DNA from: Deltaproteobacteria bacterium
GTDB taxonomy: Bacteria > Myxococcota_A > UBA9160 > UBA4427
Direction: 5' to 3'
Length of the DNA stretch: 57,900 nucleotides
NCBI GenBank assembly: GCA_029261855.1
Contig: JAJDAN010000091.1
Location: 1 to 57,900, forward strand
Under the pieces are notes generated by a model that was not told the origin of the DNA, ran no database searches, and saw only the letters and a program-made list of their open reading frames with translations. Positions 7,850-40,045 of the stretch are shown here, piece after piece. A program made the position numbers and the translations under genes. Positions within the stretch are counted from its first letter, which is position 1. Every line of letters begins with the position of its first letter.

Positions 7850-8262
7850 CGGGGTTTAATCTGAATCGTGGCGGGGTTCGGAGGACCAGATCCACCGGGC
7901 GGGCCGCCCGGCTTCTTCGGCTTCTTCGACTTCTCGTTCTGGGCCTTCTGGTCGAGCGTATCCTTCTCGGTCGTGAAGCCCAAGGTAATAGCCTGGAGCG
8001 CGTCGAAGTCGGCGGCCGCGTCGATCAGGTCGTCGATATCCTGAGCGATATCGCGTAGGGCCGAACGGGCCGCCTTTACGTCGGCGGGGACCTGTTTCGA
8101 CGGCTGCTCGGCCTCTCGGATAACGTACCAGTCGGTCCGCGAGAGGGCATCCCCGATCGTTTCCTTCAGCTCCTCGCGGACCCGCTCCTTCTCGGTGTCG
8201 AGGTCGGGTTCGTGCTGCTCGACCGAGACAAGTCCGGCCGGTCCGTAGTTTTCGTTTCTCAT
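7846..8262 (-). CDS. Putative tail-fibre assembly chaperone
   Basis: A 138-aa protein. The core LSRTDWYVIREAE...VPADV...R..LRDI (about residues 40-72) matches the short helical domain shared by tail fibre assembly proteins of the XkdW/DUF4376 kind. The C terminus is a Lys/Pro/Gly-rich tail. It lies between two fibre-type genes with ATGA overlaps, the usual place for a fibre chaperone. It could also be a structural adaptor. Confidence 0.65.
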   Translation of the reverse strand: MRNENYGPAGLVSVEQHEPDLDTEKERVREELKETIGDALSRTDWYVIREAEQPSKQVPADVKAARSALRDIAQDIDDLIDAAADFDALQAITLGFTTEKDTLDQKAQNEKSKKPKKPGGPPGGSGPPNPATIQIKPR

Positions 8263-14320: not shown

Positions 14321-14808
14321 CGTCGAAACCGTAGCACGGAGCGAACGTCCCGAAAGAGACCGACGCGCAAAACCTGGACGCCCCGCGTCCCTCTGGAGAT
14401 CGTCGCCGCCATCGGGGTAACCCCCTCGATTACAACGGTCGAGAGGTGCGGGCCGTCGGTTACGACGATATCGCCCAGCTTGGTAGCGAGCTTCGGATCG
14501 GTACCGAGGTCCTCCCAGAGCGTCGAAGCGTCCCGTAGGTAGGCCTCCCACTCGGCTATCCGGACCTCTGGCGAGTCGGCGTAGCAGGACTGGAAGGTGA
14601 TCGCGTGAGCGGGGACCGGTATACCGGCCCTCCGGAGGACTACGAACGCGAGCGCCTTACAGTCGAGACCCTCTTCGAGCGTGTGCCCGTTCTCCTTCCA
14701 GAGGATCCCCTCGCCCTCGGGCCCCTGCATCAGGTCCGTAAAGTAGACCTCACCGGGCCGAATCAAGTTCGGAGCGATAAGCTCGGGGGCGAAGGGGTCG
14801 GGGCTCAT
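14317..14808 (-). CDS. NlpC/P60-type tail-tip peptidase (gpK/GTA gp14-like)
   Basis: A 163-aa protein. The catalytic Cys50 lies in EEGLDCKALAFVVL and the likely His121 in TDGPHLSTVV, with the spacing of NlpC/P60 cysteine peptidases. The canonical Ser after Cys is replaced by Lys. In lambda and GTAs the equivalent gene follows the gpL-like protein and acts on peptidoglycan during tail assembly or DNA entry. It is the only peptidoglycan-hydrolase-type domain I recognise in the genome. Confidence 0.82.
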   Translation of the reverse strand: MSPDPFAPELIAPNLIRPGEVYFTDLMQGPEGEGILWKENGHTLEEGLDCKALAFVVLRRAGIPVPAHAITFQSCYADSPEVRIAEWEAYLRDASTLWEDLGTDPKLATKLGDIVVTDGPHLSTVVIEGVTPMAATISRGTRGVQVLRVGLFRDVRSVLRFRR

Positions 14809-15509
14809 CCAACGGTAATGGGGCCGATAGGAAGGGCGAAGGCCCCTCCGAAGTTCCTCGGGTGAATAACGGGCAGACCGACGGAGGCCTCCTCGTCCCC
14901 TCGAAGCTCGCAGGCCTCGAAGGTTAGATCGCAGTCCCCGAGCGTAGCATTACCGGGATCCCCTACGAACCCGCAGTCGTCGTCCCTGTAGTTGTGCCCG
15001 CAAGTCCGCAGGACGAGGCGCTGGGGGACGTCGAAGTTCATAAAGTCGAACGAAGAGAGATTGAAGGTCGCCGTCTCGTAGTCCGCGGAGGAGTCGACGA
15101 CGGTCGCTCGGACCGTGTACTTCGCCGAAGGGTTATCGAGGAATGCCAGGTGGACGAGATGCAGGTAGACGACCGCGTCCCGGAGGAAGTTGTTATCCCG
15201 TAGGAGTCTCATCGTCACCCCGAGCACGTTCGTAACCTCGACCGGGATCGAGTTCACGTTCCCTTCCGCGTCCTGGAGGATCTCCCCGAAGCGGATCTTC
15301 CAAGGGCTCCAGGCGTGCGCGATTCCCGTATTCGGGTCGACGCCGAAGACGATAGGCTCCTCGTTCGGCGTGATCCGGAGGATCGTATCCGAACCGTCCG
15401 GCGCGACGAGCGGGGTATCGTCCGGGCCCCTGATCTCGACAAGCCAGAGGAACGGCTCCGGGTGGAGTAGGAGGTTCTTCTTCGCTAGGAACTCGGGGGG
15501 GATATTCAA
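14805..15509 (-). CDS. Tail-tip hub protein with Cys cluster (gpL/DUF2163-like)
   Basis: A 234-aa protein. The C-terminal region holds Cys170, Cys179, Cys193 and Cys200 and a later NFGGAFALP motif, the pattern of lambda gpL, which carries a [4Fe-4S] cluster. The N-terminal 160 residues are the beta-rich hub domain. It starts at TTG 15509, overlapping the upstream TGA (TTGA). It links the distal tail ring to the central fibre. Confidence 0.82.
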   Translation of the reverse strand: MNIPPEFLAKKNLLLHPEPFLWLVEIRGPDDTPLVAPDGSDTILRITPNEEPIVFGVDPNTGIAHAWSPWKIRFGEILQDAEGNVNSIPVEVTNVLGVTMRLLRDNNFLRDAVVYLHLVHLAFLDNPSAKYTVRATVVDSSADYETATFNLSSFDFMNFDVPQRLVLRTCGHNYRDDDCGFVGDPGNATLGDCDLTFEACELRGDEEASVGLPVIHPRNFGGAFALPIGPITVG

Positions 15510-18382
15510 GACTGGACCTTCTCTTCGAGCGCAAAGGCGTAAACCCGGCCTTGATTCGACCAGCCGACGCGGAGGCGATTCTCCATAAAATGGAAGACTC
15601 CGGGGATCTCCGCAGGCAGGAAAGCGGAGGGGTCGAAGTCGAAGGGGATTACCGTCCCGTCGTGGGAGTCGAAGAAGGCGATCAGGTCGATTACCTCGGC
15701 GCTTGTCGCCCCGACGAGCCTCGCCTCGAAGTAGCGGCGAGCGAAGGTCCCGACGAGCATACGGACTCCCGTACCGGCGTAGAACGTGGTATCGGTCCTC
15801 GGGTGGTTCCTTCGCCGCTCAAGCCCCCAGCCGGGAATCAGGACCGATTCCAGGGACCCGGACTTCCCCTCGTCCTCCGCCGGGATCGTGTAGCTCGCGA
15901 AGGTCGCCGGATCAGGAGCGGTAAGGGAAGGGTCCTCGATAACGAAGTCGTCGATCTCGACGGCTGTAGGCCCGACCGAGATAACCTCGAAGCCGACCGC
16001 TCCTCCGCCTACGAGCTTCGCCGTCCCGGGAAGGGTCCCGCCCTTGTCCCGGATATCGCCGTTCAGATCGATTAGGACGTTCGGAGAGACGACCTCCCAG
16101 GTTACCTGGACCCCGTCGATCTCCGCGTGGAGCGTCGGGTCCGCGAAGACTCCGAGGCCGCTCTGGGAGGCCTCCAGATCGACTTTGACGAAGGCGGTAG
16201 TCGAGATAGCTATCGAGCCCGAGACGAGGTTCTGCCTCGCGATAACCTCCCTCGTCGACGTCGTAGTCGAAGTGAGCCCGACCCGGACCAGCTGGATAAA
16301 GGCCGGGCTTCCCGCCGCGACGTCCAGGGCGTAGCCGAAGTAGACGCCGATCGCGTTCGAGTAGGCCCCGCGGACGATTACTCGGCCCCTGGAAAGAGGC
16401 CCCTTTAGCTCGAACTTGCAGGAGACCCGCTGGTCCGCAGAGGTGAGAAAGCTCGGCCTATGGTGGATCGCGAGCGACTTCGAGGACGGGATGGAGGTCG
16501 GCAGGCCGTCGGCCGCTTCGGTCGCGCCGTTCGCCATTTCCAGCGTAGCCGAGGCGAGTCCCAGGATCGGAGCGGAAACAAGGGGAGCCCCGCTCCAGGT
16601 GTCCATCGGCCAGAGGGCATCGAGGGAGACGTCGGCGTCCGCTACGAGCTGGGCGACCGGATCGGTCTCCTCGAAGTAGGTCGCCATTAGCTTATCGACG
16701 CCCTCGATCTGAACCTCTACCGAGTGAGCAACCGCGAAGAAGTCGATCGTCCCCTGGAGCGCACGGTCCGCCGCGGGGCCGGTCTTGTCCTTACGCTCCC
16801 CGAGGATCGTCGAGAAGGTCGGCGGGAGAGTCGGCCGAACGGTCGACGCTACGGCGATCTCGTCGATCAAGAGCGCCTGCCCGAAGCGACCGATATAGCA
16901 CCGGAGACGGCCGTCTCCCGTCGAGGGGTCCGTATTGGCCCGATAGGTTACGCAGTACGCCCAGGCTTCCCCCTGGTACTTGTTCTCGACGACGAACGGG
17001 TCCGAGTTGTAGACGGTCGCGGCCGTGCCGTTCCCGAGGGTTATCTCGAACTTGGCGGCCCCGAGGCCTCCGATATCCGGGGAGGTTACGAGCCCGAAGG
17101 CGAAGCCGTTCTCGGCGGTCGTGTCGTAGTGGTCGACGAGCCCGTTCCCGTCCCGGTTCGCGTCGAGGACGGCCCAGAGGACGAACGTCCAGGCGGCCGC
17201 GGTCGCTACAGGAGGATTCGGATAGATAGCCTGCGGGAGGTTCAAGAGCAGCCGAGGCGCGTTCGGAGAGCCGACGCCGGAGAGCGTAGCCGCGGCCCCC
17301 ATATCCTCCGTCTCCGCCATCTTGACGAAGTCGAACCCCGTGCTCTGGAGCTGGTTTACCTGCTCGATCCCGAATTGATCGTTCGAGAATTCGCACTGTA
17401 GGGAGCGGCCCGCTACCCCGTGGACGTCCGCCGGAAGGACGAGCGAGGAGTTCGCCGAGCTTCGGAGGAAGTCGTCGAACCAGAGGATCGTCGGGGTGCC
17501 GTCCGGATCATCCTCGACGATAAAGTTCGAGGCGAGGGTTACCGTCGCGGTCCCGTCGCCCTCGACCCTCTCGCGGTCCAGCATGAACCCGCAGCGACCG
17601 GCCCCCAGGATCGCCGACGGGCTGGAGTCTGAACCAGTGAGAACGATTACGTCCAGGGGTGGCGGCCCGTTCATAGGGGGCCGCTTCAATATCGCGATCT
17701 GAAACTTCCTACGGCTTTCGACGTAGGTCGGGCCTTGCCCAAATTGCCCCCCGAACTTCGGGGCCGCTACGACGGCGCTCTGCCCCGGAGGTGGCTCCAA
17801 GCCCGAGACGGTAAGATCGAAGTCGACGGCCGCGCCGTTCGTTACGAGCTTTAGCTCCATATCGAAGTCGGTATAAAAGGCCTCGTCCTGCGGCGTGAAC
17901 GGCTCCGATTGTACGAGGACCGAGCCGACCCCGGAGAGGTAGCGAGAGAGCTTGAAGCGAACAGTACCGTCCCCTTGCCGCTCGACAGTGGCGACGTAGG
18001 CGTCGACGTCGACGAACCGAACGTCGGAGGTCCCGTCGTCCGTCAGCGTCCCGCCCTGGATCCGCCCGAGCAGTCCGAGTAGCGGCCGCATATGGGCTTC
18101 GTCCTTGAGCCCCGTTCCAAGGGCGAGAGCTTTTCTGGCCGTAATCCGGAGCCGTACGTCCTCGGCGGTCTTGTCCCGGTGCATTACAGCCGCGGCCGAG
18201 ACGAAGTCCCCGGCGACATTGCTCCCGCGCATGGCCGCGAGACCGGGCCCGTACCCCCCGTGGATATTGCCCGGCTTGAAGCTGGAGTTCGTCGTCTGGA
18301 GCTGCGCCCCGATGTAGAGCGCGTAGTTCGTGCCGTACGCCGGGGTCCCCCCGAAGTCGATCGTCTTCTCCCAGACGCCCAC
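15506..18382 (-). CDS. Giant distal tail protein with lectin-like domains (DUF2460/gpM-like C terminus)
   Basis: A 958-aa protein, far longer than the roughly 110-220 aa of gpM or DUF2460 proteins. The C-terminal 160 residues (FARRYFEARLVGATSAEV, then FFDSHDGTVIPFDFDPS) fit the distal-tail family and the gene order. Ahead of them are at least two jellyroll-like regions (about 390-570 and 640-800) with the WTFVLWAVLD and FELKGPL patterns of concanavalin-like folds. I infer a tail ring carrying glycan-binding modules. GTG start at 18382, two bases after the tape measure stop. Confidence 0.75.
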   Translation of the reverse strand: MGVWEKTIDFGGTPAYGTNYALYIGAQLQTTNSSFKPGNIHGGYGPGLAAMRGSNVAGDFVSAAAVMHRDKTAEDVRLRITARKALALGTGLKDEAHMRPLLGLLGRIQGGTLTDDGTSDVRFVDVDAYVATVERQGDGTVRFKLSRYLSGVGSVLVQSEPFTPQDEAFYTDFDMELKLVTNGAAVDFDLTVSGLEPPPGQSAVVAAPKFGGQFGQGPTYVESRRKFQIAILKRPPMNGPPPLDVIVLTGSDSSPSAILGAGRCGFMLDRERVEGDGTATVTLASNFIVEDDPDGTPTILWFDDFLRSSANSSLVLPADVHGVAGRSLQCEFSNDQFGIEQVNQLQSTGFDFVKMAETEDMGAAATLSGVGSPNAPRLLLNLPQAIYPNPPVATAAAWTFVLWAVLDANRDGNGLVDHYDTTAENGFAFGLVTSPDIGGLGAAKFEITLGNGTAATVYNSDPFVVENKYQGEAWAYCVTYRANTDPSTGDGRLRCYIGRFGQALLIDEIAVASTVRPTLPPTFSTILGERKDKTGPAADRALQGTIDFFAVAHSVEVQIEGVDKLMATYFEETDPVAQLVADADVSLDALWPMDTWSGAPLVSAPILGLASATLEMANGATEAADGLPTSIPSSKSLAIHHRPSFLTSADQRVSCKFELKGPLSRGRVIVRGAYSNAIGVYFGYALDVAAGSPAFIQLVRVGLTSTTTSTREVIARQNLVSGSIAISTTAFVKVDLEASQSGLGVFADPTLHAEIDGVQVTWEVVSPNVLIDLNGDIRDKGGTLPGTAKLVGGGAVGFEVISVGPTAVEIDDFVIEDPSLTAPDPATFASYTIPAEDEGKSGSLESVLIPGWGLERRRNHPRTDTTFYAGTGVRMLVGTFARRYFEARLVGATSAEVIDLIAFFDSHDGTVIPFDFDPSAFLPAEIPGVFHFMENRLRVGWSNQGRVYAFALEEKVQS

Positions 18383-18384
18383 GA

Positions 18385-21195
18385 CTAGCTCCGCTTACCG
18401 GCGATCCGGCGGACCGCCTGCTGGAATCCGCGCTGGTAGAGAAGCCCGCGCTCGACCCCCTTAATAATGACCGGCATCGCCTTCGCGATCTGGCGCTCGA
18501 AGTCCCGGTCCGAGTTGTTCCCGCCGCCGTTGACGTTGATCGTAATTCCTCCGCCGCCTCCGCCTCCGCCCTCTCCGCCCATCAGCTTTACCGGAACGTG
18601 GCGATTATCGGGCATCGGGATAACGGCCTCGGTATTCCGGCCCTCCCCGATCATCGCTAGCTGTGGCTGCGAGGCGATCCCGCCGCCCGCGTAGCCGGGG
18701 AAGTTCAGCCCGCCGGAGATTACCCCGCCGTTCGCGTAGAGAGAGAGCCCGCCGGGGAAGACCCCGCCCTTCGCTGCCGGGAAGATCGACGGGAAGGCCT
18801 GCTTTAGGCCCGCCATGATCGAGGCCTGTACGATCATCGAGGCGATATCGACGACGACGTTCTTCGCGAAGTCGCCGAAGGCCTCGGAGGCTCCAGCGCT
18901 GCCGGAGATAACGGATTTCAGAGCGCCCCCGAGCTGCGATTCGATGATCGATCCAGCCGAGACCGCGGCCTCCTGGAACTTCGTCTTCTCCTTCGAGGCC
19001 TCGGCCGTAGCCGTGCGCTCCTCGCGGATCCGCTCGATCAGGGCCCCGAGCTTCTGGGTCTGGTCGTCGGTAAGGCGGCCGTCCTCGCGCAGGAGTTCGA
19101 GGCGCTCTCGCTCCTTCTCCGCCCAGGAATCGATCTCGACCTTCTGCTCCTCGAACGTCTTCACGACCTCGGCCATTAAGGCCTTCTGCTCGACTGCGAA
19201 GTTCTTCGCTTTGTCGATCGCGGCCTTAAGAGGGTCGTCGCTCGGGCTCGTACCCGTTACCGGATTCTTGGGAGCGCTCGCAGGCGGAAGGGCCTCTCCG
19301 CCGCTCCCAGTGGGCCCAGGGCTGCCGCCGTTCATCGAGGCGATAAGACCTGCCATCTCCTCTTTCGCGGCCCGTAGACGCTCCGTGGCCTCGGGAGAGA
19401 TCGATCCCGAGCGGCCCGCTAGCGCGTTGATCTTCTCCGTAACCTCCGATAGCGGGGCGGGGAGCTTCGACATATCGCGCCCGAGGGCCGTCATTTCGGC
19501 CCGGAACATCGCGATATTTAGATTCATCTGGCGGGTGATAGTGTCCGCCGCGTTCTCGTCCGTCGCGAATAGCTCCGCGTCGGTCACGGTCCGGGCACCC
19601 TGACTCATAAAGGCTCCGCGCTGCCGGAGCGCTGCCTGCTCCTTCGCGATCAGCCCTTCGAGTTCGACGATCCTCGCGGCCGCGTCCTCGTTCGTCTTGC
19701 CGAAGAAGCCGGGGATCTCTGCGAGCGCGGAGCGGAAGGCCGTCGGGATCAGGATTACGGCATCGAGAAGGATCTCGGCCTGGTTCCGCACCTCCTCGAC
19801 GAAGATCCCCATAGAGGCTGCGATCAGGTTAAAGGCTCCGTCGATCAGCTTCGAGACGCCCTCGACGCCCCCGGCCTCCTCGATAAATTCCTTCATCGCT
19901 TTTACGAGTCCGATAAATCCCTCGGTAAGGACCTTCACGACCCCGCGGAGCGCGGCCGCGACGACCCGAGCTTCTTCCAGGACGACCTCCAGGCCGCCGA
20001 CTCGGTCGATCGCCTCGTTCAGGGTCTCGATAATGGCCTGCCCCGCGCCCTCGACGAACTCGATCCGGATCGCGTTCCAGGCTGCGGCGACCCGGAAGGC
20101 CGGGTCCGCCATCTGCTTATCGAAGGCCTTGCCGGTCGCCCCGGTTCGATCCTCCATCGCTCGCAAGATCTCGTTAAAGCCTTCGGCCTTCTCGCCGGTA
20201 AGGTTCAGGATCGCACTAGCGCCCTCGACCCTGCCGAGGAACTCGACGAGCCCGTCCTCGTTTCCCTTGAAGGCCCGGCGCAGGTCCGCGAGCACGGGGA
20301 CCAGGCCCTCCGCCTTGATCGTGGCGAGGGAGAAGCTCGTCCCGAATTCCTTCGAGAAGAGAGCGTTAATCTCCTTCGACGATTTCAGGAGCGAGACGAT
20401 CGCGGCCCGGACCTGGGTAACAGCCTCGGCGGTCGGCGTACCGCTCTTCGTGATCGCGGCAACCGAAGCCAGAAGCTCGTCGAACTCTACCCCGAGCTGC
20501 GCGGCGAAGGGCGTTACCTGGGAGAGGCTCCCCCCAAGCTCCGGGATCGTCGTAATGCCCTTCCGAACCGCCGTAAAGAGCGTGTCGGAGAAGTCCGCCG
20601 CATCGCTTACGTCCGCGTTGTAGGCGTTCAGGGAGGAGGACAGCAACCGGACCGAGTCGTCGACTTCCGCGATACCGGCCGTCGCGAGACGGTTCGCATC
20701 GTTGAGGAGAATCAGTGCATCCCGGGCGTTTCCGGATCCAGCGGAGATCGCCTGGTACAGTCCGGCTGCTAATTTCGTTTCGTTGCCGCCCTGGGCCTGG
20801 GCTAGCTTCACGACCTCGCCGCGGAGGGTCTTGATCTGCCCGACCGATAGCTCGACGATCGTCGAGACCTCGGACATAGCCCCCGAGAACTCCGAGGCCT
20901 CCTTCGTGATATTGATCGCGAAGGCCAGCGACCCGAAGACCGCGATCAGTGGGAGTAGGGCGCTCGAAAGCGTCGACTTGATCGCCCGGCCCGCGGCCTT
21001 CGCGGCGACCAGGATCGAGGCGAAGGCCTTCTTCCCGAGGAGTCCGATCCGCCTAAGTAGATTCCCGGTCTCGCGGAAGGCCTTCGAGGCCAGCTTGGCC
21101 GCCTTCACGCCGACCGGGCCGATCGCCTTAATGATCCGGAGCGCTTCGTCCTTAGCGCGTAGAACGAGCGTGTACTCTTCGGTGACGTTCGCCAT
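18385..21195 (-). CDS. Tail tape measure protein (TP901 type)
   Basis: A 936-aa protein. Residues about 100-290 match the conserved tape-measure core (EFSGAMSEVSTIVELS, LAAGLYQAISAG, GVEFDELLASVAAITKSG). A hydrophobic segment lies near residue 85, the middle is helical, and the C terminus is Gly-rich (YANGGVISGG, GEGRNTEAVIPMP). At about 1.5 angstrom per residue this implies a tail of roughly 140 nm. It directly follows the frameshifted chaperone pair. The start has no clear Shine-Dalgarno, so translation may couple to the frameshift product's stop six bases upstream. Confidence 0.93.
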   Translation of the reverse strand: MANVTEEYTLVLRAKDEALRIIKAIGPVGVKAAKLASKAFRETGNLLRRIGLLGKKAFASILVAAKAAGRAIKSTLSSALLPLIAVFGSLAFAINITKEASEFSGAMSEVSTIVELSVGQIKTLRGEVVKLAQAQGGNETKLAAGLYQAISAGSGNARDALILLNDANRLATAGIAEVDDSVRLLSSSLNAYNADVSDAADFSDTLFTAVRKGITTIPELGGSLSQVTPFAAQLGVEFDELLASVAAITKSGTPTAEAVTQVRAAIVSLLKSSKEINALFSKEFGTSFSLATIKAEGLVPVLADLRRAFKGNEDGLVEFLGRVEGASAILNLTGEKAEGFNEILRAMEDRTGATGKAFDKQMADPAFRVAAAWNAIRIEFVEGAGQAIIETLNEAIDRVGGLEVVLEEARVVAAALRGVVKVLTEGFIGLVKAMKEFIEEAGGVEGVSKLIDGAFNLIAASMGIFVEEVRNQAEILLDAVILIPTAFRSALAEIPGFFGKTNEDAAARIVELEGLIAKEQAALRQRGAFMSQGARTVTDAELFATDENAADTITRQMNLNIAMFRAEMTALGRDMSKLPAPLSEVTEKINALAGRSGSISPEATERLRAAKEEMAGLIASMNGGSPGPTGSGGEALPPASAPKNPVTGTSPSDDPLKAAIDKAKNFAVEQKALMAEVVKTFEEQKVEIDSWAEKERERLELLREDGRLTDDQTQKLGALIERIREERTATAEASKEKTKFQEAAVSAGSIIESQLGGALKSVISGSAGASEAFGDFAKNVVVDIASMIVQASIMAGLKQAFPSIFPAAKGGVFPGGLSLYANGGVISGGLNFPGYAGGGIASQPQLAMIGEGRNTEAVIPMPDNRHVPVKLMGGEGGGGGGGGITINVNGGGNNSDRDFERQIAKAMPVIIKGVERGLLYQRGFQQAVRRIAGKRS

Positions 21196-22216: not shown

Positions 22217-23671
22217 CTACCAGACGAAGATAAAGAGTTCGTCGTCTCCTTTGCCTCGGCACTGAAAAGGGATCGTATTCCGGACGAGCCCGGCGTCCGC
22301 GTCCTTCGACGGGGACTGGAAGAGGACCGAGGGAGCGAGGTACTCGATCGTGTTCCCGTCGCCCAGGGAGGAGCCGACGCGGCCGGAGAACCGGCAGGCG
22401 TTCTTATTCCAGGCGTTCCCCATGATCGGGAAGACCGCCTCTTTCACCGCCCGAGGATCGAGGGTGCCGGAGACGTTCCGCTTTACGATCTTCGTCGACT
22501 TGAAGCCAGCGGTCGACGAGTCGCCCGGGAAGTCGACCCGCGAGAGTTCGTTCTCGATCGAGAAGGAAGCCTCCTTGAAGAGCGGGAGCCAGGTGTTCTG
22601 GACCGTGGCCCCGTCGTAGTAGAGAAGCTCCAGGCGCGATCCTACGACCGTCGGGGGCTTCGCGTCCGGGTCGCCGGGCCAAGCGGGGGCCGCGGCATCG
22701 ACCGGAAGGATCCCGATACCGTCGAAGGCGAAGGTCCAGAGACCGCGGTCGCCGTTCGCGAGACGGAGGCTCGGGCTACAGCGGGCACCCTTTAGGCGCG
22801 TGTGCTGGGTGTCCCAGTGGCCGACGGTAAGGCTCGGGACGTCGAGCTGGGTCGGTACCGCGTCGGTCGTGCCGGTCGCGGAGCCGCCGACGACCGAGAT
22901 CGTCTCGCCCGAGGAGAAGTTCCCCGAGTCCTCGAAGAGTTCGTATTCGAGGAACTGCGCTCCAGTCCCGGAGGTCTCCTTCGTGCAGTAACCCCGCGCT
23001 CCGGAGGTACCGCCGAGGAGTTCGTCCCCGACCGAGATCGGACCCGAAGCTACCGCCGAGAGCGATACGTGGGAGACCTCGCAGCCGTAGGGGTGGTAAA
23101 TGTAGGCCTCGTCCGCCGCGTTGCCCGCCCCAGAGATCGGGATATCGATCCCGGTAGCCGTGAGCTGGATATCGCCGGAGACCGGCGTACCGGACAGAAG
23201 CTCGTAGAAGATCGCCGAATCGCCCTCGTAGTAGTCTCCGTAGACCCTCGCCGTAGCGCTCGAAGTCGCCCCGAAGGTGACGATCGTTCCGGAGAGGAGC
23301 TGCTTACCGGTCGCCCAGGTGGTCCCGATCTTGATCCGGCCGCACTGTGCGCCCAGAGTCGGTCGGACCTCCTTGAAGCCTCCTGCTCGGAGGAGGATCG
23401 ACCAGGGCGGAGGGGCGGGCCATGAGGCCCCCTTGACTCCCGCGAGTTCGACCTGCGGGCCGATCGTCCCTGCCTTCGTCCCGGCGATATCGTCGGGCAT
23501 CGTGAGCGTGCCGCGGAGTAGGTCTCGCGAGTTCGAGTCCTGCTCCAGCGTCGGGAAGAGGGTAGCGACGACTGGGAGCAGATCGGCCGCGACCAGCGTC
23601 TCGCCCGTACCCTCGTCGTCCTCGATCTTCGCCGCGAAGAGTGCCTTTTGACTAAGGGTGCCTGCGCCCAT
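22217..23671 (-). CDS. Major tail tube protein
   Basis: A 484-aa, beta-rich, Gly/Thr/Ser-rich protein located just before the tail chaperone pair, the standard tail-tube position. The terminal parts (LSQKALFAAKIEDDEGTGE at the start, FKEASFSIENELSRVDFPG near residue 375) match tube-protein strands. The length is about twice a minimal tube protein; an inserted region about residues 180-290 (GDELLGGTSGARGY and repeats of that type) is probably a surface-exposed domain. AGGAGATT precedes ATG 23671. A terminator follows, fitting high separate expression. Confidence 0.78.
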   Translation of the reverse strand: MGAGTLSQKALFAAKIEDDEGTGETLVAADLLPVVATLFPTLEQDSNSRDLLRGTLTMPDDIAGTKAGTIGPQVELAGVKGASWPAPPPWSILLRAGGFKEVRPTLGAQCGRIKIGTTWATGKQLLSGTIVTFGATSSATARVYGDYYEGDSAIFYELLSGTPVSGDIQLTATGIDIPISGAGNAADEAYIYHPYGCEVSHVSLSAVASGPISVGDELLGGTSGARGYCTKETSGTGAQFLEYELFEDSGNFSSGETISVVGGSATGTTDAVPTQLDVPSLTVGHWDTQHTRLKGARCSPSLRLANGDRGLWTFAFDGIGILPVDAAAPAWPGDPDAKPPTVVGSRLELLYYDGATVQNTWLPLFKEASFSIENELSRVDFPGDSSTAGFKSTKIVKRNVSGTLDPRAVKEAVFPIMGNAWNKNACRFSGRVGSSLGDGNTIEYLAPSVLFQSPSKDADAGLVRNTIPFQCRGKGDDELFIFVW

Positions 23672-23701: not shown

Positions 23702-25075
23702 CTAGCACGGGGCGAGTTCGTAGGGGTTCTCGACCTGCTCAAGGTATCCGATTCTGAGGCCCAGTGCAGCCCCACTGTGATCCCCCGTCTCGTCCCGGTC
23801 AAGGTAGCGAACGGAGTCGACGACTTGAACCTTATCGACGTTTCCGTCGAGCTGGATGTTCGTCGAGATCAACTTCCGGACGTCCGCGATAAAGGTCGAG
23901 GTCCGCCTTTCGTGACCGGCCCAGCCCTCCTGGGTCAAGTTTACGCCTACCTCGAAGGAGTTCGTCGAGCGAGTAGCGTTCTCGGCGTCGTCGTACTTTG
24001 CCCGCAGGGAAGTAACCATAATCGCGGGGTAGACCCCGTGCGATCCGTCCGGATCCCCGAAGCGGTAGACGCGCTTTACGTCCGTGAGATAGCCATTATC
24101 GAACGTAATCGTCCGCAGCTTGGCCTCCAGGAGGCGGATTACCTTCTCCTCCGCCGAGACCATTCCGGCCGCCCCGAGGAGCCAGTCGAGCGTATCGTCG
24201 ACGATCTCCCCGATGCTTACGGAGTCCTCGGAGGAATGGTCGAGGATCTTCGAGTTCGCGGCCGCGAAGGTCGCGGAGCCTTCGATTAAGAGCTGATTGA
24301 TCGCCCCGGCGTTCCAGAAGGAGCCGAGGTCCTCCTGGTTAATGGGGTATCCGGGGCCGATATAGTCCGTAGAGGTGCCCGCGACGTCGGAGAGGACGTA
24401 GACCGGGAGGGCCGCGTTATCCGGCGTATTCACGTACGAGACGACCGAGGCCGCGATCAGGTCCGCGAGCAGGATACTTAGGATCGTCGTCGCCGGGTTC
24501 GTCGAGAAGTGAGTCGCGAGGGTCGTATTCTTTATCGACACGTAGGAGGCGACCGGGTTCCGCAGGACCCCGCCCTGGTATCGAGAACTCTCGCGCTCCG
24601 CGGCGAGCCCGGATCCGGGATTCGCTGTATCCGGACCGAGCAGGGAGAAGGCGAGGGCCGTAGCTCCAGACCCGATCCCGTAGCAGAACATCCGAAGCGG
24701 GTCGACCGCGAGGCTCGAAGCGGCGAACCGGAGGAACTGAACGGCCCGCGCCGAGTCCTTCTCCGCATGCTCGGCCGCCCCGAAGAGCCCGTCCCCGACT
24801 AGGGAGTCGTCGGTAACCGTGTAGGAGCACCAGGCGACATTAAAGCCCGCCTCGTAGGCGAGATAGGGCAGACCGTCGGAGGGGCGCAGGATCCCGCCCT
24901 CTGCCCGCGGAGGAGCCGATCCGAAGTTCGAGTCGTCGGTATCGGGGAAGTAGACGAAGGTCGGATAGGTGATCCCGTCGGCGCTTCCGCGCTTCCAGAA
25001 GTCGAGGACCTGGTAGGCGTTTCCGCCCGCGGGGTTGTAGTCAGCACCTAGGAAGAATGCGGGAATCTCGGCCAT
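23702..25075 (-). CDS. Fusion of an alpha/beta-hydrolase-like domain with a tail terminator protein
   Basis: A 457-aa protein of two parts. Residues 30-300 look like a carboxylesterase-type alpha/beta hydrolase: GLPYLAYEAGFNVAWCSY, then DSARAVQFLRFAA, the elbow YGIGSGATAL (132-141), a possible acid near 230 and His280 in ILDHSS. By alignment of G-x-S-x-G the nucleophile position is Gly135, so the enzyme may be inactive or use Ser136. Residues 306-455 (KVIRLLEAKLRTI...YPAIMV) fit a tail terminator, as does the position just before the tube gene. It would ring the tail's upper end. Confidence 0.7.
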   Translation of the reverse strand: MAEIPAFFLGADYNPAGGNAYQVLDFWKRGSADGITYPTFVYFPDTDDSNFGSAPPRAEGGILRPSDGLPYLAYEAGFNVAWCSYTVTDDSLVGDGLFGAAEHAEKDSARAVQFLRFAASSLAVDPLRMFCYGIGSGATALAFSLLGPDTANPGSGLAAERESSRYQGGVLRNPVASYVSIKNTTLATHFSTNPATTILSILLADLIAASVVSYVNTPDNAALPVYVLSDVAGTSTDYIGPGYPINQEDLGSFWNAGAINQLLIEGSATFAAANSKILDHSSEDSVSIGEIVDDTLDWLLGAAGMVSAEEKVIRLLEAKLRTITFDNGYLTDVKRVYRFGDPDGSHGVYPAIMVTSLRAKYDDAENATRSTNSFEVGVNLTQEGWAGHERRTSTFIADVRKLISTNIQLDGNVDKVQVVDSVRYLDRDETGDHSGAALGLRIGYLEQVENPYELAPC

Positions 25076-25440
25076 TATCGATAGCCCCCCTTCCAGAGGC
25101 GAAGCGTAATCGTAGTTTGAGCTTGCCGGGAGGAGAGGAAGACCTCGACCTCCTCGGGATCGTCGAAGACGACGAGAACGGTCCCGGCCTCGTCGTGGAC
25201 GTAGGTCATAGGGAGAGTTCCGAAGATCGTCCGGTTCAAGAGGTCGCGGAGTCGTCGCACCTTCGCCGGATTACCGACCAGGATCGGGACCTCGAAGATA
25301 TCGATCGGCCGCTCGTCCAGCTGGCGCGAGAAGGAGGGCCCCTCGTCTCCGCGGGATTGGACGTCCAGACGCTCTCGGGTACGACTCCAGGGCTCCTCGC
25401 CCTGGATATCGAAGACCTCGGCAGGCGTGATCGCGGGCAT
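25075..25440 (-). CDS. Hypothetical virion-assembly protein, 121 aa
   Basis: A 121-aa protein between the gpG-like connector and the tail terminator fusion, joined to both by one-base TAATG overlaps. A helical stretch (KVRRLRDLLNRTI) is followed by beta strands (MTYVHDEAGTVLVVFDD). The position suggests a head-tail joining or tail completion component. I do not recognise the family. Confidence 0.7.
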   Translation of the reverse strand: MPAITPAEVFDIQGEEPWSRTRERLDVQSRGDEGPSFSRQLDERPIDIFEVPILVGNPAKVRRLRDLLNRTIFGTLPMTYVHDEAGTVLVVFDDPEEVEVFLSSRQAQTTITLRLWKGGYR

Positions 25441-26132
25441 TACGGCTTCCTCCGTGTCGACTTCATCCGGCTACGGATCGCTTCCGCTACGAGCTGGACC
25501 CGCTTCTTACTGCCTGCATTGTGGGTATCGCGCATGCCGAGCCTCGCCGGGATCTTCGGTTCCCCGTCGAAGAGGAGGTAGAGGAAGAGTAGCTCCCCAG
25601 CCTGCGCGGGGTCTTCCTTCACGATAAAGCCTAGCACGCTGCCGGTATGCTCCGGAGTCGAGAAGACGAAGGTATCGTCCCACTCCCTAGCGGACGCTTC
25701 CCTCGGGACCCCGCTAGGAGTCATCGCGTCTTCTAGCGGGATCGTGAGCGCCCGGGCCGCCTTCGGCCGCAGAGAGATCTCCCCGCCTGCGGACTTGGTC
25801 CCTAGTTCGTGCGTGATCGCGTAGGGGCTGGTCGTAAACTTCCGGCTCTCGATCGACCCGAGGCTGCCGTTATGCGTCACGCGAGCGTCGAAACTTCCCT
25901 TTAGACCAGCCTCCCCGGACCGGGTCGCCAGCGAAGCCGACGGGGACTTCGGTCCGGATAGCGAGAGCGGCCCGCTGATCGACTTCTTCATTTTCCCAGA
26001 CCAGGAGATACCGTCCTTCCGGAAGGCCTGGAGGACGCTCTCGAACATGACCTCGCCCCCGATCTGGTTTAGGCGGAGGCCGATCTCCTCGAACACTTCA
26101 TCGAAGTTAGTGAAGAGGAAGTCATTAGCCAC
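25440..26132 (-). CDS. Head-tail joining / virion morphogenesis protein (Mu gpG-like)
   Basis: A 230-aa protein. The pattern SPYAITHELGTKSAGG, followed later by IPARLGMRDTHNAGSKK and a final basic helix, is characteristic of the phage virion morphogenesis (Mu gpG) and HK97-gp10-like families (YA.IHE.G then P.R). It lies between the head-tail connector and tail terminator genes. It overlaps the upstream gene by eight bases. Confidence 0.75.
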   Translation of the reverse strand: MANDFLFTNFDEVFEEIGLRLNQIGGEVMFESVLQAFRKDGISWSGKMKKSISGPLSLSGPKSPSASLATRSGEAGLKGSFDARVTHNGSLGSIESRKFTTSPYAITHELGTKSAGGEISLRPKAARALTIPLEDAMTPSGVPREASAREWDDTFVFSTPEHTGSVLGFIVKEDPAQAGELLFLYLLFDGEPKIPARLGMRDTHNAGSKKRVQLVAEAIRSRMKSTRRKP

Positions 26133-26817
26133 GGATCGACCTTCGTACGAACGGTTCGAGCATGGTTAGAGCGATCTTCGGGAGCGCCAGCTCGCCGACG
26201 TACTCCGTCGTCCCCGTTCTATCCCGGGTGCTAGATCGGCCCAGGTTCCGCCTACGCTTGAACGTCTCCCCGAGGATGATCGTCGCGGCATGCGAGATCG
26301 ATTCCGCGACCCCGCGGAGGGCGTTCGCCGGAGCCCCAGCGGCCGACGAGGCGACCAGGTAGTCGAGGTCCGCGGCATCGCCGGTAACCCACTGGAACTT
26401 ATCCGCGATCCCCCCGGTAGCTGTTATCCGGACCTGCCCGGGCTTCGTGAAGCGGAGCGGAGTATCGAGTTCGACGAACCCGCCGTCGGCGGAGAGGTGG
26501 TAGTTCTCGCGCTCGATGAGCGTCGGGCTCGTAGCGAAGTCCCGGTCCTCCGCGGTCTCGACCTTAAAGGTCGCGTCGTCCACGACGTTGTTAAACGGGA
26601 GGTAAAGGTACCTCGTAAACCCTTTCCGGTTCGGTCTGGGGTAGACGAGCCGCCCGACGACCCGGTCGATCTTATTGTGGAGCCGGGCTTCGAGTAGCTC
26701 GGTCAAGACCGGGAGGAGACGGTCGATCGTTTCGTCCGGCGAGTCTCCCTTCCCGGTCTCTCCCAACCAGTCCTTGACCCTCTGCCGGGTCGTAACCTCA
26801 AAAGTGGGGACGACCAC
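26125..26817 (-). CDS. Head-tail connector protein (gp6-like)
   Basis: A 230-aa protein whose N terminus (TTRQRVKDWLGETG, then ETIDRLLPVLTELLEARLHN) is the helical opening of the HK97 gp6/DnaT-like connector family. It is followed by a beta-rich insertion (LYLPFNNVVDDATFKVE) and C-terminal helices. Gene order after capsid and before the gpG-like protein fits. It would form the ring beneath the portal. Confidence 0.75.
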   Translation of the reverse strand: MVVPTFEVTTRQRVKDWLGETGKGDSPDETIDRLLPVLTELLEARLHNKIDRVVGRLVYPRPNRKGFTRYLYLPFNNVVDDATFKVETAEDRDFATSPTLIERENYHLSADGGFVELDTPLRFTKPGQVRITATGGIADKFQWVTGDAADLDYLVASSAAGAPANALRGVAESISHAATIILGETFKRRRNLGRSSTRDRTGTTEYVGELALPKIALTMLEPFVRRSIRG

Positions 26818-28495: not shown

Positions 28496-30064
28496 TTAGT
28501 TGGCCCAGCCGTTAGCGACCTGGAAGGACTCGCCGTGGCGAAGACCGACGTCGACTTTCGCCGACATACGGATCCAGACTTGGCGCTGGAGGAAGGCGTT
28601 AGAAGCGCCATCCGTAGCTCCAGAGTCCGAAGCGTGGATCGAGGGGACGATCTTGGTCGCACCCCAACGTCCGAGGAGCAGGTCGGCCCAGTTACCGAAG
28701 AGCATATCGGTAACGGCTCCGTAGGCGAGCTGGGTCGTGTGCCCGAAGTTGTGCCCCCAGAGCTGGGAGTTACCCAGGCCTGCCGAACCGTTAGCGTTCG
28801 GGCTGGAGTCCATCGGGTTAAAGAGGAGGGGTCGCCCGGAGTGATCCTTGACCTTTCGGAGGATCTGGAGGGCGAGCGGGTTCAGCGCGAAGCCGAGGGA
28901 GCCTTTGTAGGCGTTCCGGCTGGCGAGCTGGAAGATCATGTCGTCCATCAGATCGGTAACGATCTGGAGGGTATTGGACGCCGAGTAGTCGGTCGCGGTC
29001 GGGACTGCGAAGCCGGAGAAGTCGGTTACGCCGATGCCCGGAGCGTTCACGATACCGAGGGGGGAGCCTTCTCCGCCTCCGCCGATCATCACTCCGCGAT
29101 CGATAGCCTCGGCGGTAGCCAGGGCCATATCTTCCTCGACGATTCCGGAGGCGTTAGGAGCGGACTCCATCAGGTCTTCGGAGATCGGAACCACGGTCAC
29201 CAGGGGCCGCGGAGTGAGGTTCAGCATCCCCATAGACGCTTGGCTCTTCGTCGCCTTCTTGCCCTCGGCTACCCAGTAGGCGGTCGCGCCCCCGGAGAGC
29301 TTCGCGAACTGGACCGGGCCGCCGGTCAGGTTCGGAAGGGTACGCATGCCGAGCTGTAGGGCCACGGTATGCGGACGGAGCAGCTCGATTACGTCCGACA
29401 TCCAGGTCGGAGCGATCAGGAAGCCGCCGGTCGAAGAGACGCCCGCGTTCATCGTCTTTTGACGGTAGTCCGCGACCATCTCCTTCTCGGGGAAGGCTTT
29501 ATCCCAGCCCTCCCAGTGGTTCAAGTAGCCTTGAACGGCACGGGTAAGGGAGAACTTCTTGTCGGGGTCGTCGCCGTTCGCGTCCCGGGTCCCGTCGTAG
29601 CCGCCGAGGCCGACGCGAGCCGTACGCTGCTGCGAAAGAAGATTGATCTCCCGCTGCTGCTGCTCCATAAGGCCGACGATTTTCGCCATGTTCCCGGACC
29701 TGTCCTCGTCCGAGAGGACGATTCCGGCCGAGCGGAGAAGCTCGGAGGTCCGGTTATCGTCCTCCGAGGTGCGCTCCTCTTCCTCGCCCTCGCCGGTTCC
29801 GCGGCTTTCGAGCTTCGCGAGACGCGGGAGGACCTTCTCCTCGATCAGGTGGAAGAGGTCGTTCGCGTTCTTCTTCGCGCCTTCGATTCGGGTGTCCGTA
29901 TCGCGCTCGATACGGAACTCCTCGTCGTCCTCGGTGTCGAGGTTGCCTGCGGCTCGCTCCTGATCCTCGAATTCCTTCGTGATCTGGTCGATCTGCTTCT
30001 TGAGGCGCTTCGCCTCGGAAAGGGACTTGATCTTCTGGGTACGCTTCTTCGTCTTGACAGTCAT
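28496..30064 (-). CDS. Major capsid protein (HK97 fold) with N-terminal scaffold domain
   Basis: A 522-aa protein. Residues 1-145 are a charged coiled coil (delta/scaffolding domain) probably removed by the protease upstream. The HK97-fold body follows, with GGFLIAPTWMSDVIELLRP, FAKLSGGATAYWVAEGKK, RPLVTVVPISEDLMES and a late LFGNWADLLLGRWG strand (about residue 455). The last motif recurs in a Tat-signal protein at 45.8 kb. No Shine-Dalgarno is evident before ATG 30064, which is odd for so abundant a protein. Confidence 0.93.
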   Translation of the reverse strand: MTVKTKKRTQKIKSLSEAKRLKKQIDQITKEFEDQERAAGNLDTEDDEEFRIERDTDTRIEGAKKNANDLFHLIEEKVLPRLAKLESRGTGEGEEEERTSEDDNRTSELLRSAGIVLSDEDRSGNMAKIVGLMEQQQREINLLSQQRTARVGLGGYDGTRDANGDDPDKKFSLTRAVQGYLNHWEGWDKAFPEKEMVADYRQKTMNAGVSSTGGFLIAPTWMSDVIELLRPHTVALQLGMRTLPNLTGGPVQFAKLSGGATAYWVAEGKKATKSQASMGMLNLTPRPLVTVVPISEDLMESAPNASGIVEEDMALATAEAIDRGVMIGGGGEGSPLGIVNAPGIGVTDFSGFAVPTATDYSASNTLQIVTDLMDDMIFQLASRNAYKGSLGFALNPLALQILRKVKDHSGRPLLFNPMDSSPNANGSAGLGNSQLWGHNFGHTTQLAYGAVTDMLFGNWADLLLGRWGATKIVPSIHASDSGATDGASNAFLQRQVWIRMSAKVDVGLRHGESFQVANGWAN

Positions 30065-31707: not shown

Positions 31708-34569
31708 CTAATCTTCCTCGTCGATTCGGCCGCGCAGGCCGCACTCGCAGTTAATGATCTCCTCAGCCGGTGCGCCCGACTGGAGGGGGTGGGTAAGTCC
31801 GTTCGAGAAGACCTCGCCCGGTACTCGGCGCTCGCCCTCCTGGGCGAAGTGAGAAGCGCGAACAGTGCCCGAAGGCTCGACCCCGCGGCCGGAAGTCAGC
31901 CACTCGGCGTCGATGATATCCCCGAGCGCGAAGGCCCTTACGAGGGAGTCGAAGCGAGCGGAGGAGACGGAGCCGCCTACCTCGGTCCGGGCAATCGTTA
32001 GCGCCCGCGCTGAATGAGAATTGAAGGCCCTCGTCGTCGTCGCCTTTAGATCCTTGAGGCTGGCCTTTACGCGGGCCTGGAGGGTGCCGACGTCTGCCGG
32101 TCCTGCCGCGAGAGTCTTTAGGAGGTCCGACCGGAGGCGCTTCGCGACGACGCTCGTCGTCCCCTCGGCTACCTGGATCGCCCGAGTAGCGGCCTTCTGT
32201 AGGATCGCAGGGTCGGCGACATTCAGTACCGAGACCCCGAGTTCCTTCGCGATATCCTTCGCGGCCGTACCCCAGACGTCGACGAGGATCGGCTCGATCT
32301 TGGCCGATAGGGCCTCGGCCCATTTCGCATCCTGGACGACGAGAAGCTCCTCGATCGCGTCCGCCGTAAGGTCGCCCTTCGCGAAGAGCGAGACGTCCCG
32401 CAGGCGGTCGAAGGAGACCGACTCTAGCCGCTTGTGCCGGTCGATCCATCGCAGCGTAGAGGGTGCCCACGGGACCGGAATATTCCGGATCGTATTCCCG
32501 AGGCAGTCCTTCACGGGGCGGAGGAGCCGGTGCGGGCAGACCTTTTGGATCCGGGCCTCCTCGATCGAGTCTTCCCGTACGGCCTTGTAGAGGGTTTCCA
32601 GCTCGGCCGCCGAGACGTTCGGCATAGGGTCCGAGTAGACCTTTCCGAAGCTATCGTCTCCGTCGAGCAGGCGTCCGCGGAGATCCGCAGATCCGATCGC
32701 GGAGCCGAGCGCAGAGCGCGGAACGATCCCGTCCGCGGCGAAGACTTCGAGCGCCCGCAGCTGGGCGGAACGCATCTCGAAGAAGATCCGCTTTACGGCC
32801 CGGTCCATCTTGGCGCGGGAGGCCTTGCCGATCCCCTGGAGCCTGCGCCAGTAGGCGAGGTTCGAGGTGCGGGTCTCCAGGTCGAGGACGCGGACGACGG
32901 GCGTCGGGACTTCCTTCTTCGGAGGTGCCTTCTTCGGGGGGACCGGAGGCTTTTTCTTGCCCTTCGGCTTCGTCTCCTCCTCCTCGATCTCCTCCTCTTC
33001 TTCGACCTCTTCGTCCTCCTCTTCCTCTTCCTCCTTCGGCTCCGGCTTCGGAGGCGGGAGAAGGACGATCTTCGGCAGGTTGATTATCCCCGCCATAGCG
33101 AGAACGGCCGCGGGGTCTTCGACTCCTGCCGCCTGTAGCTCCTTGATCGCGAGGCCGACCTCCTTCGCTGCCATCGCCTGCCCGCGGATAGCCGCGGCTC
33201 GAAGCGGGATTACGCCCTGGGGAACGAACCCGAGATCCCCGCCGTCGATCGGCTTTTCGAGACGGATCCCTACGGAGGAGAGCGCTTCGTTCAGAGGGAC
33301 GCCCGCCCGCTGGAGGATCGAGAGCGACTTCGCCATTCCTTCGAGGTCGCCGACTGCTCGTTCGAGGTCTTCGAGGTTCGAGCGGCAGCGGATCCCCTGC
33401 CATTCCGGCCGACGGAGGCGAGGGAAGAAGGAGGAGTTAAGCTTCGAGTCCGCGAGCCGGAAGTGGGGACCGACGCGCAGGAAGAGGTAGGCGCGGAAGC
33501 GGCCCGTAAAGGTCGCGAAGTTCTCGACGTCTGCGCCGAGTAGGCCGGGCGACGTCTGGAAGACCGCCGAGATATCGCCCTTATTCGCCTCTAGGAGCAT
33601 CGAGTATTGCATATCCCGGGGCGTCGAACGGCCCGAGGTGTACTTAGCATCGCCTTCTAGGAGGCGCGTGTTCCCCGCCGAGTCCGGGCTATTCCAGTGC
33701 TCGTCGAGTTCGGCCTCGTAGCGATCGCGCTCCCCGTCGGAGAGGAACCCGCCGACGACGACGATCCCGCCCGGGTCTCCGATGTTGCGGAGGAGGATGT
33801 TCTGGTACCGCCGGGCGAGGTGGTTCTGGCTGATCGGACCGTAAGCGGCCGCGAGTCGGCCCAGGCCTCGACCTGGGCGGTCGTTATCCGGTCGCTCGAT
33901 AAACTGGACCGTAGAAGCGATCGGCCAGATCATCCGACCTTCGGGCGTCGGGACCTCCCAGGCGTGGATCTCGTTCCCGCGTCCGCGTGTGATCGGCCGG
34001 ACCAGGTCGCCGCGCACCGGCCAGATCTCGTCGGGGAGATCCATAAAGCCGTGGGGGATATCGTCCGGGATCGAGAAGGTCGGCTCTCCGTTCGGGCCTC
34101 GCAGGAACCAGAAGGACTCGCCGGTAAGCGAGAGGTTCTGCGCGTCCGAGAGGTTCAGGAGGCCGGGATCCATTACCGGATTAACCCTCTCGAAGAGCGC
34201 CCTTACCGGGTGGCCCTCGGGTAGCTCCTGCGCTCGCGGATCGTCCGGGTCGCGGTCGTAGAACTTCCGGCGGATACCCGAGGCGACGATCGAGAGCAGG
34301 TCGACGCAAGAGAAGACCCAGGGCTCCTGCTTGAACGGCTGCCGGACCTCTTCGGACTCCGAGGCCGCGCCTAGGTGCATGCCCCCGCCATCCCCGCCGA
34401 AGTCCATCCAGGAATTGCCGATCTGTTTCTTAAACATCGCCCCCATAGCCCCGGGGAGGCGTGCGAGGACCTGGGTCGGCCTCGGAGACCGCGTAGCGTC
34501 TAGGGCCGCTTGCGGTACTTTAGAAGGCCCGGCGGCCGTGAGGGTCGATCCTCCGCGGTTCTCTTCCAT
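31708..34569 (-). CDS. Natural fusion: portal protein + Mu gpF-like head morphogenesis domain
   Basis: A 953-aa protein. Residues about 45-490 are an HK97-type portal (QEPWVFSCVDLLSIVASGI, DIPHGFMDLPDE, SMLLEANKGDISAVFQTSP). Residues 500-563 are a Glu-rich then Lys/Pro-rich linker. The C-terminal 400 residues are a MuF/SPP1 gp7-like domain with ALTIARTEVGGSVSS (about 861), FSNGLTHPLQSGAP and the final INCECGL. MuF usually is a separate gene. Fusion fixes 12 MuF copies per portal. GCGAGG precedes ATG 34569. Confidence 0.9.
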   Translation of the reverse strand: MEENRGGSTLTAAGPSKVPQAALDATRSPRPTQVLARLPGAMGAMFKKQIGNSWMDFGGDGGGMHLGAASESEEVRQPFKQEPWVFSCVDLLSIVASGIRRKFYDRDPDDPRAQELPEGHPVRALFERVNPVMDPGLLNLSDAQNLSLTGESFWFLRGPNGEPTFSIPDDIPHGFMDLPDEIWPVRGDLVRPITRGRGNEIHAWEVPTPEGRMIWPIASTVQFIERPDNDRPGRGLGRLAAAYGPISQNHLARRYQNILLRNIGDPGGIVVVGGFLSDGERDRYEAELDEHWNSPDSAGNTRLLEGDAKYTSGRSTPRDMQYSMLLEANKGDISAVFQTSPGLLGADVENFATFTGRFRAYLFLRVGPHFRLADSKLNSSFFPRLRRPEWQGIRCRSNLEDLERAVGDLEGMAKSLSILQRAGVPLNEALSSVGIRLEKPIDGGDLGFVPQGVIPLRAAAIRGQAMAAKEVGLAIKELQAAGVEDPAAVLAMAGIINLPKIVLLPPPKPEPKEEEEEEDEEVEEEEEIEEEETKPKGKKKPPVPPKKAPPKKEVPTPVVRVLDLETRTSNLAYWRRLQGIGKASRAKMDRAVKRIFFEMRSAQLRALEVFAADGIVPRSALGSAIGSADLRGRLLDGDDSFGKVYSDPMPNVSAAELETLYKAVREDSIEEARIQKVCPHRLLRPVKDCLGNTIRNIPVPWAPSTLRWIDRHKRLESVSFDRLRDVSLFAKGDLTADAIEELLVVQDAKWAEALSAKIEPILVDVWGTAAKDIAKELGVSVLNVADPAILQKAATRAIQVAEGTTSVVAKRLRSDLLKTLAAGPADVGTLQARVKASLKDLKATTTRAFNSHSARALTIARTEVGGSVSSARFDSLVRAFALGDIIDAEWLTSGRGVEPSGTVRASHFAQEGERRVPGEVFSNGLTHPLQSGAPAEEIINCECGLRGRIDEED

Positions 34570-38913: not shown

Positions 38914-39281
38914 TCGTGGAACTCCTTGGGTATCAGCTTCTCTTCTTCGATCTCCAGACGATTCAGTAGCGCGAGCTTGGCCGTTACCTCGTCGAGGCCG
39001 CAGGTGCAGTCCTTCCCGAGGAGGTCGCCGTTCGCGCCGAACTCCATCGCCTCGCAGTCGCGGGCGTGCTCGGAGTTGTTCGAGAGGTCCTTCGCGGCCT
39101 GCGCGAGATCCGCGAATGCGCGGTACCGCCGGAGGGCCGCGTCGAGTCGGACCTGCCAGAACTCCCCATTCGCGCCGATCTCTTCGACGTAGAACTCGAA
39201 GGCTCGGTCGACCGGTGCGAGACGGACGTCGAGGAGCGAGTAGACGGGGGACTCGCCCTCGCAGATCTTGTCGCCCCTCAC
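38910..39281 (-). CDS. Hypothetical protein with CTCGLDE motif, 123 aa
   Basis: GTG start at 39281 in a GTGA overlap. The helical sequence contains EHARDCEAMEFG and KDCTCGLDEVTAKLALL. The CxC-G-L-D-E ending with three cysteines is shared by small phage proteins of unknown role and may bind a metal. Confidence 0.7.
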   Translation of the reverse strand: MRGDKICEGESPVYSLLDVRLAPVDRAFEFYVEEIGANGEFWQVRLDAALRRYRAFADLAQAAKDLSNNSEHARDCEAMEFGANGDLLGKDCTCGLDEVTAKLALLNRLEIEEEKLIPKEFHE

Positions 39282-40045
39282 GCTCGCGCCCCGGCTCCAG
39301 CGGAATGCGAATCGAGGTAGCAGTCGATAACGAACCGCTCGATCCTCTCCGAATCGGGGAGGCCCAGGGCAGAGGTGCGCTTTAGCTCGACGAGACGAGC
39401 TTCGAGCCCGGCCGCCTCCTCCAGGACTTCCTCCTTCGTCGCCCCGCCAGTTCGGACGCTAATAATGCGCGACCGCTCGGGCTCCGGCATCGGCAGGGTG
39501 AGAGAGCCCGTCTCCGCTAGCTCGATCCCCTGGTAGCCCAGCCGCAGAAGGTGTCCCGCGTACTTCGTATCGAAGCCGTACTTCGCTACGAGTTCGGGCC
39601 GGTTCGGCATCATCCTTTTGCGCGTGAGGCGGTCCCTCTGCTGCCTCATATAGCCCAGGTACGGGCCGAATAGGTTGGTCCCGATAAAGGCGTCCCGCAT
39701 CTCTCGAAGCGCCGATCCGCGCTCGTCGCAGATCAGGACGGCGCTCTCTGGAAGGAAGAGAAGCGTAAGGATCGTCGGGTTCCCAGAGATCGCGAGGCGA
39801 GCCCATTTCGCGAGGCTGTAGATCGTCAAGTCCAGATCTCCAGGTCCCGACCTCACCCCCTCCGGCTTAGTTCGGTGGGTCCATTGCTCGAACCCTCGCC
39901 GTAGGCCGAAGAAGTGGTCGAAGGGCTCGACGCATATCCCCATCTCGTCGCGGTCCTGCTCTTCGCCGACGGATAGGCCGTAAAGCGTCGAGCCTACAAC
40001 TCCACGAAAGATCGTGTTCGGCTCGGCGAGTTCCCGAGCCGTCAT
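39278..40045 (-). CDS. RlaP-type nucleotidyltransferase (pol beta superfamily)
   Basis: A 255-aa protein. Gly18-Ser19 followed by YGL and Asp31-Arg-Asp33 (GSTLYGLSVGEEQDRDEMG) is the nucleotidyltransferase metal-binding core of the RlaP/PF10127 family, linked to RNA repair. The rest fits that family (LTIYSLAKWARLAISGNPT, TLLFLPES, KYAGHLLRLGYQG). The substrate is unknown; it could modify or repair tRNA cut by host defences. It sits among ASCH and DUF1643 genes. Confidence 0.82.
   Translation of the reverse strand: MTARELAEPNTIFRGVVGSTLYGLSVGEEQDRDEMGICVEPFDHFFGLRRGFEQWTHRTKPEGVRSGPGDLDLTIYSLAKWARLAISGNPTILTLLFLPESAVLICDERGSALREMRDAFIGTNLFGPYLGYMRQQRDRLTRKRMMPNRPELVAKYGFDTKYAGHLLRLGYQGIELAETGSLTLPMPEPERSRIISVRTGGATKEEVLEEAAGLEARLVELKRTSALGLPDSERIERFVIDCYLDSHSAGAGARA

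Follow-up and report, generated by a model that had tools for sequence, protein, structure and literature searches.

A putative pseudo-esterase domain fused to the tail terminator of a divergent phage

A single gene in the window (the whole stretch of 57,900 nucleotides that was analysed) joins two protein parts: a predicted alpha/beta-hydrolase of the BD-FAE esterase kind, with a glycine at the position of the catalytic serine, and a tail terminator of the Chi/Casjensviridae type. Our preferred reading, which we hold with somewhat more belief than doubt, is that the phage shows a catalytically dead esterase domain as a decoration of its neck, carried by the terminator hexamer and most likely used for binding. 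The coordinates of the features are collected in Table 1.

The window is one whole contig (C91) within a genome assembly of 6.96 Mb, and its two ends (positions 1–141 and 57760–57900) are identical, giving an exact overlap of 141 bases. Because of these identical ends, the contig most likely represents a complete, circularly closed phage genome (57,759 bp) that ended up in the bacterium's bin; an integrated prophage is the less likely reading. Such co-binning is no proof of the host. All recognisable phage genes of the window lie on the minus strand. The phage is very divergent, and IMG/VR scans with its capsid or terminase as the query returned no sister phages. Upstream of the terminase, an RlaP-type nucleotidyltransferase (PF10127, RNA repair; E 2e-26) is encoded at 39278–40045.

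The structural genes follow the order portal, capsid, adaptor, a 230-aa gene, stopper candidate, fused gene, tube slot, and tape measure. The fused gene is thereby located between the head-tail joining genes and the tube and tape measure genes, with the tube slot assigned by position; the 230-aa gene was likewise given the HK97 gp10-like slot from its position only. Its reading frame is single and uninterrupted, and its start codon shares bases with the TAA that ends the upstream gene (TAATG). By codon position, the GC content of the ORF is close to the values for the genes of the capsid, tube slot, and tape measure, and for residues 1–305 it amounts to 0.61/0.50/0.83, resembling the neighbouring structural genes. 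Several other proteins of the phage have particularities of their own. The portal (953 aa, 31708–34569) is fused to a C-terminal head-morphogenesis domain (phrog_2662, phrog_2468), and a 958-aa protein without a match in Pfam, PHROGs, or NCBIfam lies between the tape measure and minor tail protein L (15506–18382). The central tail fibre J-like protein (1868 aa, 8945–14551) contains a Laminin_G_3/concanavalin-like domain at residues 493–655, and a 228-aa protein (8259–8945) starts with an Mtd_N domain (major tropism determinant N-terminus; E 4e-7), downstream of which several more proteins of 217–239 aa without matches are found.

Table 1. Coordinates, in the window, of the fused gene, its domains and motifs, and its structural neighbours.
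Feature	Position	Strand	Basis or remark
Fused putative pseudo-esterase/tail terminator	23702..25075	-	457 aa; ATG at 25075, stop at 23702
Predicted BD-FAE-like alpha/beta-hydrolase domain, residues 1-304 (homology from about residue 15 to 303)	24164..25075	-	homologues, HMM, AF2, fold match
YFPDTD, residues 42-47, site of the lost oxyanion motif	24935..24952	-	HGGG in homologues (alignments A1, A8, A9)
Degenerate nucleophile elbow YGIGSGA, residues 132-138	24662..24682	-	Gly135 at the Ser position
His280, possible remnant of the conserved HHPxHA His motif	24236..24238	-	alignment here uncertain
Met305 (ATG), domain junction	24161..24163	-	sole start-type codon in residues 290-334
Chi/Casjensviridae-type tail terminator domain, residues 305-457 + stop	23702..24163	-	phrog_5078, HMM, alignment A4, Foldseek
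Tape measure protein	18385..21195	-	phrog_23013 E 5e-57
484-aa protein, major tail (tube) protein slot	22217..23671	-	position only; weak phrog_358 match E 4e-4
Head-tail stopper candidate	25075..25440	-	PF05354 Phage_attach E 0.011, under its cut-off
Head-tail adaptor	26125..26817	-	phrog_442 E 1e-11
Major capsid protein (HK97 type)	28496..30064	-	PF05065 E 3.5e-34

The terminator half is the easier one to recognise. Among the PHROG families, residues 305–457 match phrog_5185, of unknown function, at E 7e-5 and phrog_5078, annotated as "tail terminator", at E 7e-4. An HMM built from nine Casjensviridae-type terminators, from which the phage protein was excluded and which finds the solved Chi terminator (8vhx_C) at E 6e-67, hits the fused ORF at E 1.8e-4 as the only significant ORF in the window. 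With phmmer, the Enc34 terminator was matched at E 2e-4 (in a set of seven proteins), and 8vhx_C was the sole, very weak match in the PDB (E 0.21). When an alignment-free, low-confidence model (pLDDT of about 35–56 in this part) was submitted to Foldseek, the cyanophage A-1(L) terminator came out best (E 5e-3), with lambda gpU, NF5 neck, T5 p142, and pyocin collar proteins near the top. The terminator domain proposed in the first-pass annotation is thus borne out by PHROG and HMM matches and by gene position, and the PHROG and HMM searches, which could have contradicted it, found no second terminator gene in the closed 57.8-kb phage contig. An ordinary Casjensviridae-type terminator, free-standing and adjacent to a tube-like protein, is encoded in a second genome from the same bacterial family (G012:C97:34774-35256).

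The hydrolase half is more remote. Direct Pfam and NCBIfam scans found no hydrolase family in the ORF, and the Pfam model PF20434 has no match on the phage protein at E ≤ 1, whereas it does match the homologues of that protein: all six that were scanned are PF20434 BD-FAE esterases (E 1e-14 to 3e-22). By tblastn against the genomes of the phylum, E values down to 2.9e-6 were obtained within one genome, with the best matches on about residues 50–220, and the open frames behind these matches gave blastp E values down to about 2e-7 (small set). Judged from these sequence comparisons, the similarity exceeds chance: the best matches all cover one and the same region of the domain, and a single family accounts for them. 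A hydrolase HMM gave E 6e-13 for the ORF, a value that is partly circular as the profile was seeded by matches to the phage protein, and nothing significant for the other ORFs of the window; the Pfam membership of the homologues is independent of this. A scan of GTDB contigs brought in 24 homologues from Victivallales, Rhodopirellula, Hydrogenedentes, Verrucomicrobia, and Deltaproteobacteria, a few of which are the same loci. The relatives of the domain are accordingly BD-FAE-type (PF20434) esterases in Myxococcota-like and Planctomycetota/Verrucomicrobiota genomes, and tblastn against phages gave only one match at chance level (E 9).

An AlphaFold2 prediction with an alignment of 23 GTDB homologues reached a pTM of 0.69, with a pLDDT that exceeded 80 for much of residues 61–170 and with strands and helices in hydrolase order. 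This last prediction covers residues 1–308 only (a joint MAFFT alignment with terminators mixed both domains), and as the alignment includes homologues of known fold, the fold is confirmed by it rather than discovered. In Foldseek and VIA-align 2, the top of the list consists entirely of alpha/beta-hydrolases (T. terrifontis Est2, E 9e-9), the best fold match being 6a6o (Z 18.8, rmsd 3.3 over 208 residues). Residues 206–290, the C-terminal half of the domain, are poorly modelled, with a block pLDDT of 35–64, and poorly aligned; the alignment-free model had a mean pLDDT of 36 for the hydrolase half. Taken from the models, residues 15–303 or so are predicted to be an alpha/beta-hydrolase of the esterase fold. 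The first-pass annotation had placed such a domain ahead of the terminator, and homologues, pTM, and Z scores all agree with it; structure prediction and fold search could have refuted the idea and returned this very fold.

The active site tells a different story from the fold. In an ungapped alignment of 62 residues to a cellular esterase (40% identity), Gly135 stands opposite the catalytic serine and Ser136 opposite the alanine of GxSAG. A serine faces Gly135 in every cellular homologue (23/23 in alignment A9 and 13/13 in alignment A1, two sets that overlap in a few loci), so the glycine that had been noticed at the nucleophile position holds up, and position 136, alanine in the homologues, is serine in the phage (A9). 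The GxSxG nucleophile motif is absent and GIGSG is found instead; the HGGG oxyanion-hole motif is absent as well, with YFPDTD in its place, which strengthens the earlier suggestion of a dead enzyme. The phage protein keeps D25, Y85, D107, R110, Q113, R116, G133, G137, D149, A151, S163, and R165, each of them invariant in the 23 homologues (A9). The AlphaFold2 model has a strand at 124–134, a turn at 135, and a helix at 136–146 that starts at Ser136, and it places residue 135 at the nucleophile position and Ser136 at +1. Because Gly135 is the elbow residue and Ser136 opens the next helix, a canonical serine esterase is excluded at the level of sequence. His280 lies opposite a conserved histidine in 23/23 homologues in A9, but not in A1, in a block with a pLDDT of about 54–64. 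At the level of sequence, the domain has lost its catalytic motif but kept the residues on which the fold depends.

How the two halves came together can be read, in part, from the junction. Met305 aligns beside the start methionine of free-standing terminators and is probably the ancestral start codon. Because it is also the sole start-type codon around the junction, the arrangement suggests a gene fusion that retained its old start codon. With no stop, a single coding bias, and this ancestral-start-like methionine, we are dealing with one fused gene rather than two. Both halves belong to known families, and none of the collections searched contained the two combined. An N-terminal domain was present in 0/80 viral relatives of the terminator in IMG/VR, which leave room for an extension of at most 60 residues from a start codon. 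Searches of phage records, IMG/VR, GTDB contigs, and 379 genomes of the phylum revealed no relative of the whole fusion (in the last set, only the hydrolase part had matches), and a literature search found no paper on an esterase-terminator combination. The fusion rests on a single genome, and the N-terminal domain could be a recent capture that is still decaying. Hydrolases in viral contigs (L134–L147) were considered as a source of the fusion and rejected: all keep GxSxG, and the search of their surroundings yielded no terminator.

Siphophage terminators are hexamers located between the tube and the head completion proteins. In the mechanism that we propose, a bacterial BD-FAE-type esterase would have been captured and fused to the N-terminus of the tail terminator, a ring that seals the tail tube and connects it with the neck. 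With six terminator copies in the ring, as in other siphophages, six pseudo-esterase domains would form a collar around the head-tail junction, presumably pointing outwards. These domains would most likely bind, without catalysis, a ligand on the host surface or in the environment, and shielding or bracing of the neck may be a secondary role. Acylated glycans, which esterases of the BD-FAE kind recognise, would be the obvious candidate. A more specific version, in which the six inactivated esterase domains on the ring recognise acylated host-surface glycans and so form a receptor-binding layer at the neck instead of the tail tip, is put forward only tentatively.

Four other explanations were weighed. 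The N-terminal domain may be a purely structural spacer or brace of the head-tail joint that has no ligand and whose stable fold was recruited as bulk, as with other collar proteins; we see this as a minor contender. A lost catalytic motif with retained core residues would fit it, as would the location at the neck; however, the 80 related terminators without the domain imply that necks of this kind need no bracing, and there is no specific point in favour of the idea. It is rather unlikely that the domain is removed or bypassed. In that case, the working terminator would begin at Met305 (after cleavage or through internal initiation), and the pseudo-esterase would act in the infected cell or be a decaying remnant. 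The position of Met305, exactly at the domain junction and aligned beside the start of free terminators, would suit such a bypass, as would a fusion that is not common to any relative. On the other hand, the stretch upstream of Met305, CTGGCTCCTCGGGGCGGCCGGA, is without a convincing ribosome-binding site, the coding bias of the domain equals that of its neighbours in strength, and the scaffold residues are intact.

An active hydrolase with an unusual nucleophile, for which Ser136 had been named earlier, seems improbable to us. Ser136 does adjoin the elbow, and His280 is perhaps kept in one alignment, but the model's elbow turn is residue 135 rather than 136, which opens the following helix, and the HGGG oxyanion motif is gone too. 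To our knowledge, no serine hydrolase of the alpha/beta-hydrolase fold uses a serine at +1. Least probable of all would be an assembly error by which an esterase gene of the host was joined to the terminator gene of a phage. The binning of the contig with a bacterial genome could hint at this, but the contig closes on itself over its exact 141-base overlap, the start of the ORF sits on the stop of a phage gene, codon bias is similar, and the degeneration falls precisely on the catalytic positions, unlike in cellular esterases.

Tail terminators are usually regarded as minimal, conserved assembly parts. Major tail proteins and Dit proteins serve as display platforms. A terminator that carries a whole pseudo-enzyme would mean that the neck ring can serve as such a platform as well, and that dead enzymes are recruitable as structural or binding modules of phages. 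If the glycan-recognising collar proves true, captured esterases can become ligand-binding collars, and this raises the question of whether the phage neck binds what the ancestral esterase cut.

Compared with known systems, the C-terminal part is the most familiar. Residues 305–457 align over their full length with the Chi terminator (PDB 8vhx chain C) and those of Casjensviridae (Enc34 type, phrog_5078), at 17–29% identity across alignment A4, and these terminators occupy the same slot, directly before the tube protein. They are, however, free-standing proteins of about 160–180 aa, whereas the phage protein has its N-terminal domain. That domain shares with the BD-FAE esterases (PF20434) the fold, the DxxRAxQFxR helix, the G-x-x-x-G frame of the elbow, and the RES(S/T)R motif, but it has glycine for the catalytic serine, has lost HGGG, and does not have HHPxHA intact. 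Moreover, BD-FAE esterases are bacterial cellular proteins, whereas the fusion is a structural protein of a phage. Thermogutta terrifontis esterase 2 (5ao9/7bfn) and a Caldicellulosiruptor acetyl esterase (6a6o) are among the closest solved folds (Z 17.3–18.8 over 205–218 residues); both are active serine esterases, with 16–18% identity to the phage domain.

For the function, the neck passage structure of the lactococcal phages 936 and TP901-1 comes to mind, a collar with carbohydrate-binding modules, one of which resembles the CBM of carbohydrate esterases (PMC6669499). In TP901-1, the neck passage protein is non-essential and infection proceeds without it (PMC6669499). It is a separate protein, built from a BppU-like ring domain and fibres, with neither a terminator fusion nor a pseudo-enzyme fold, and it provides a functional precedent for the binding collar proposed here.
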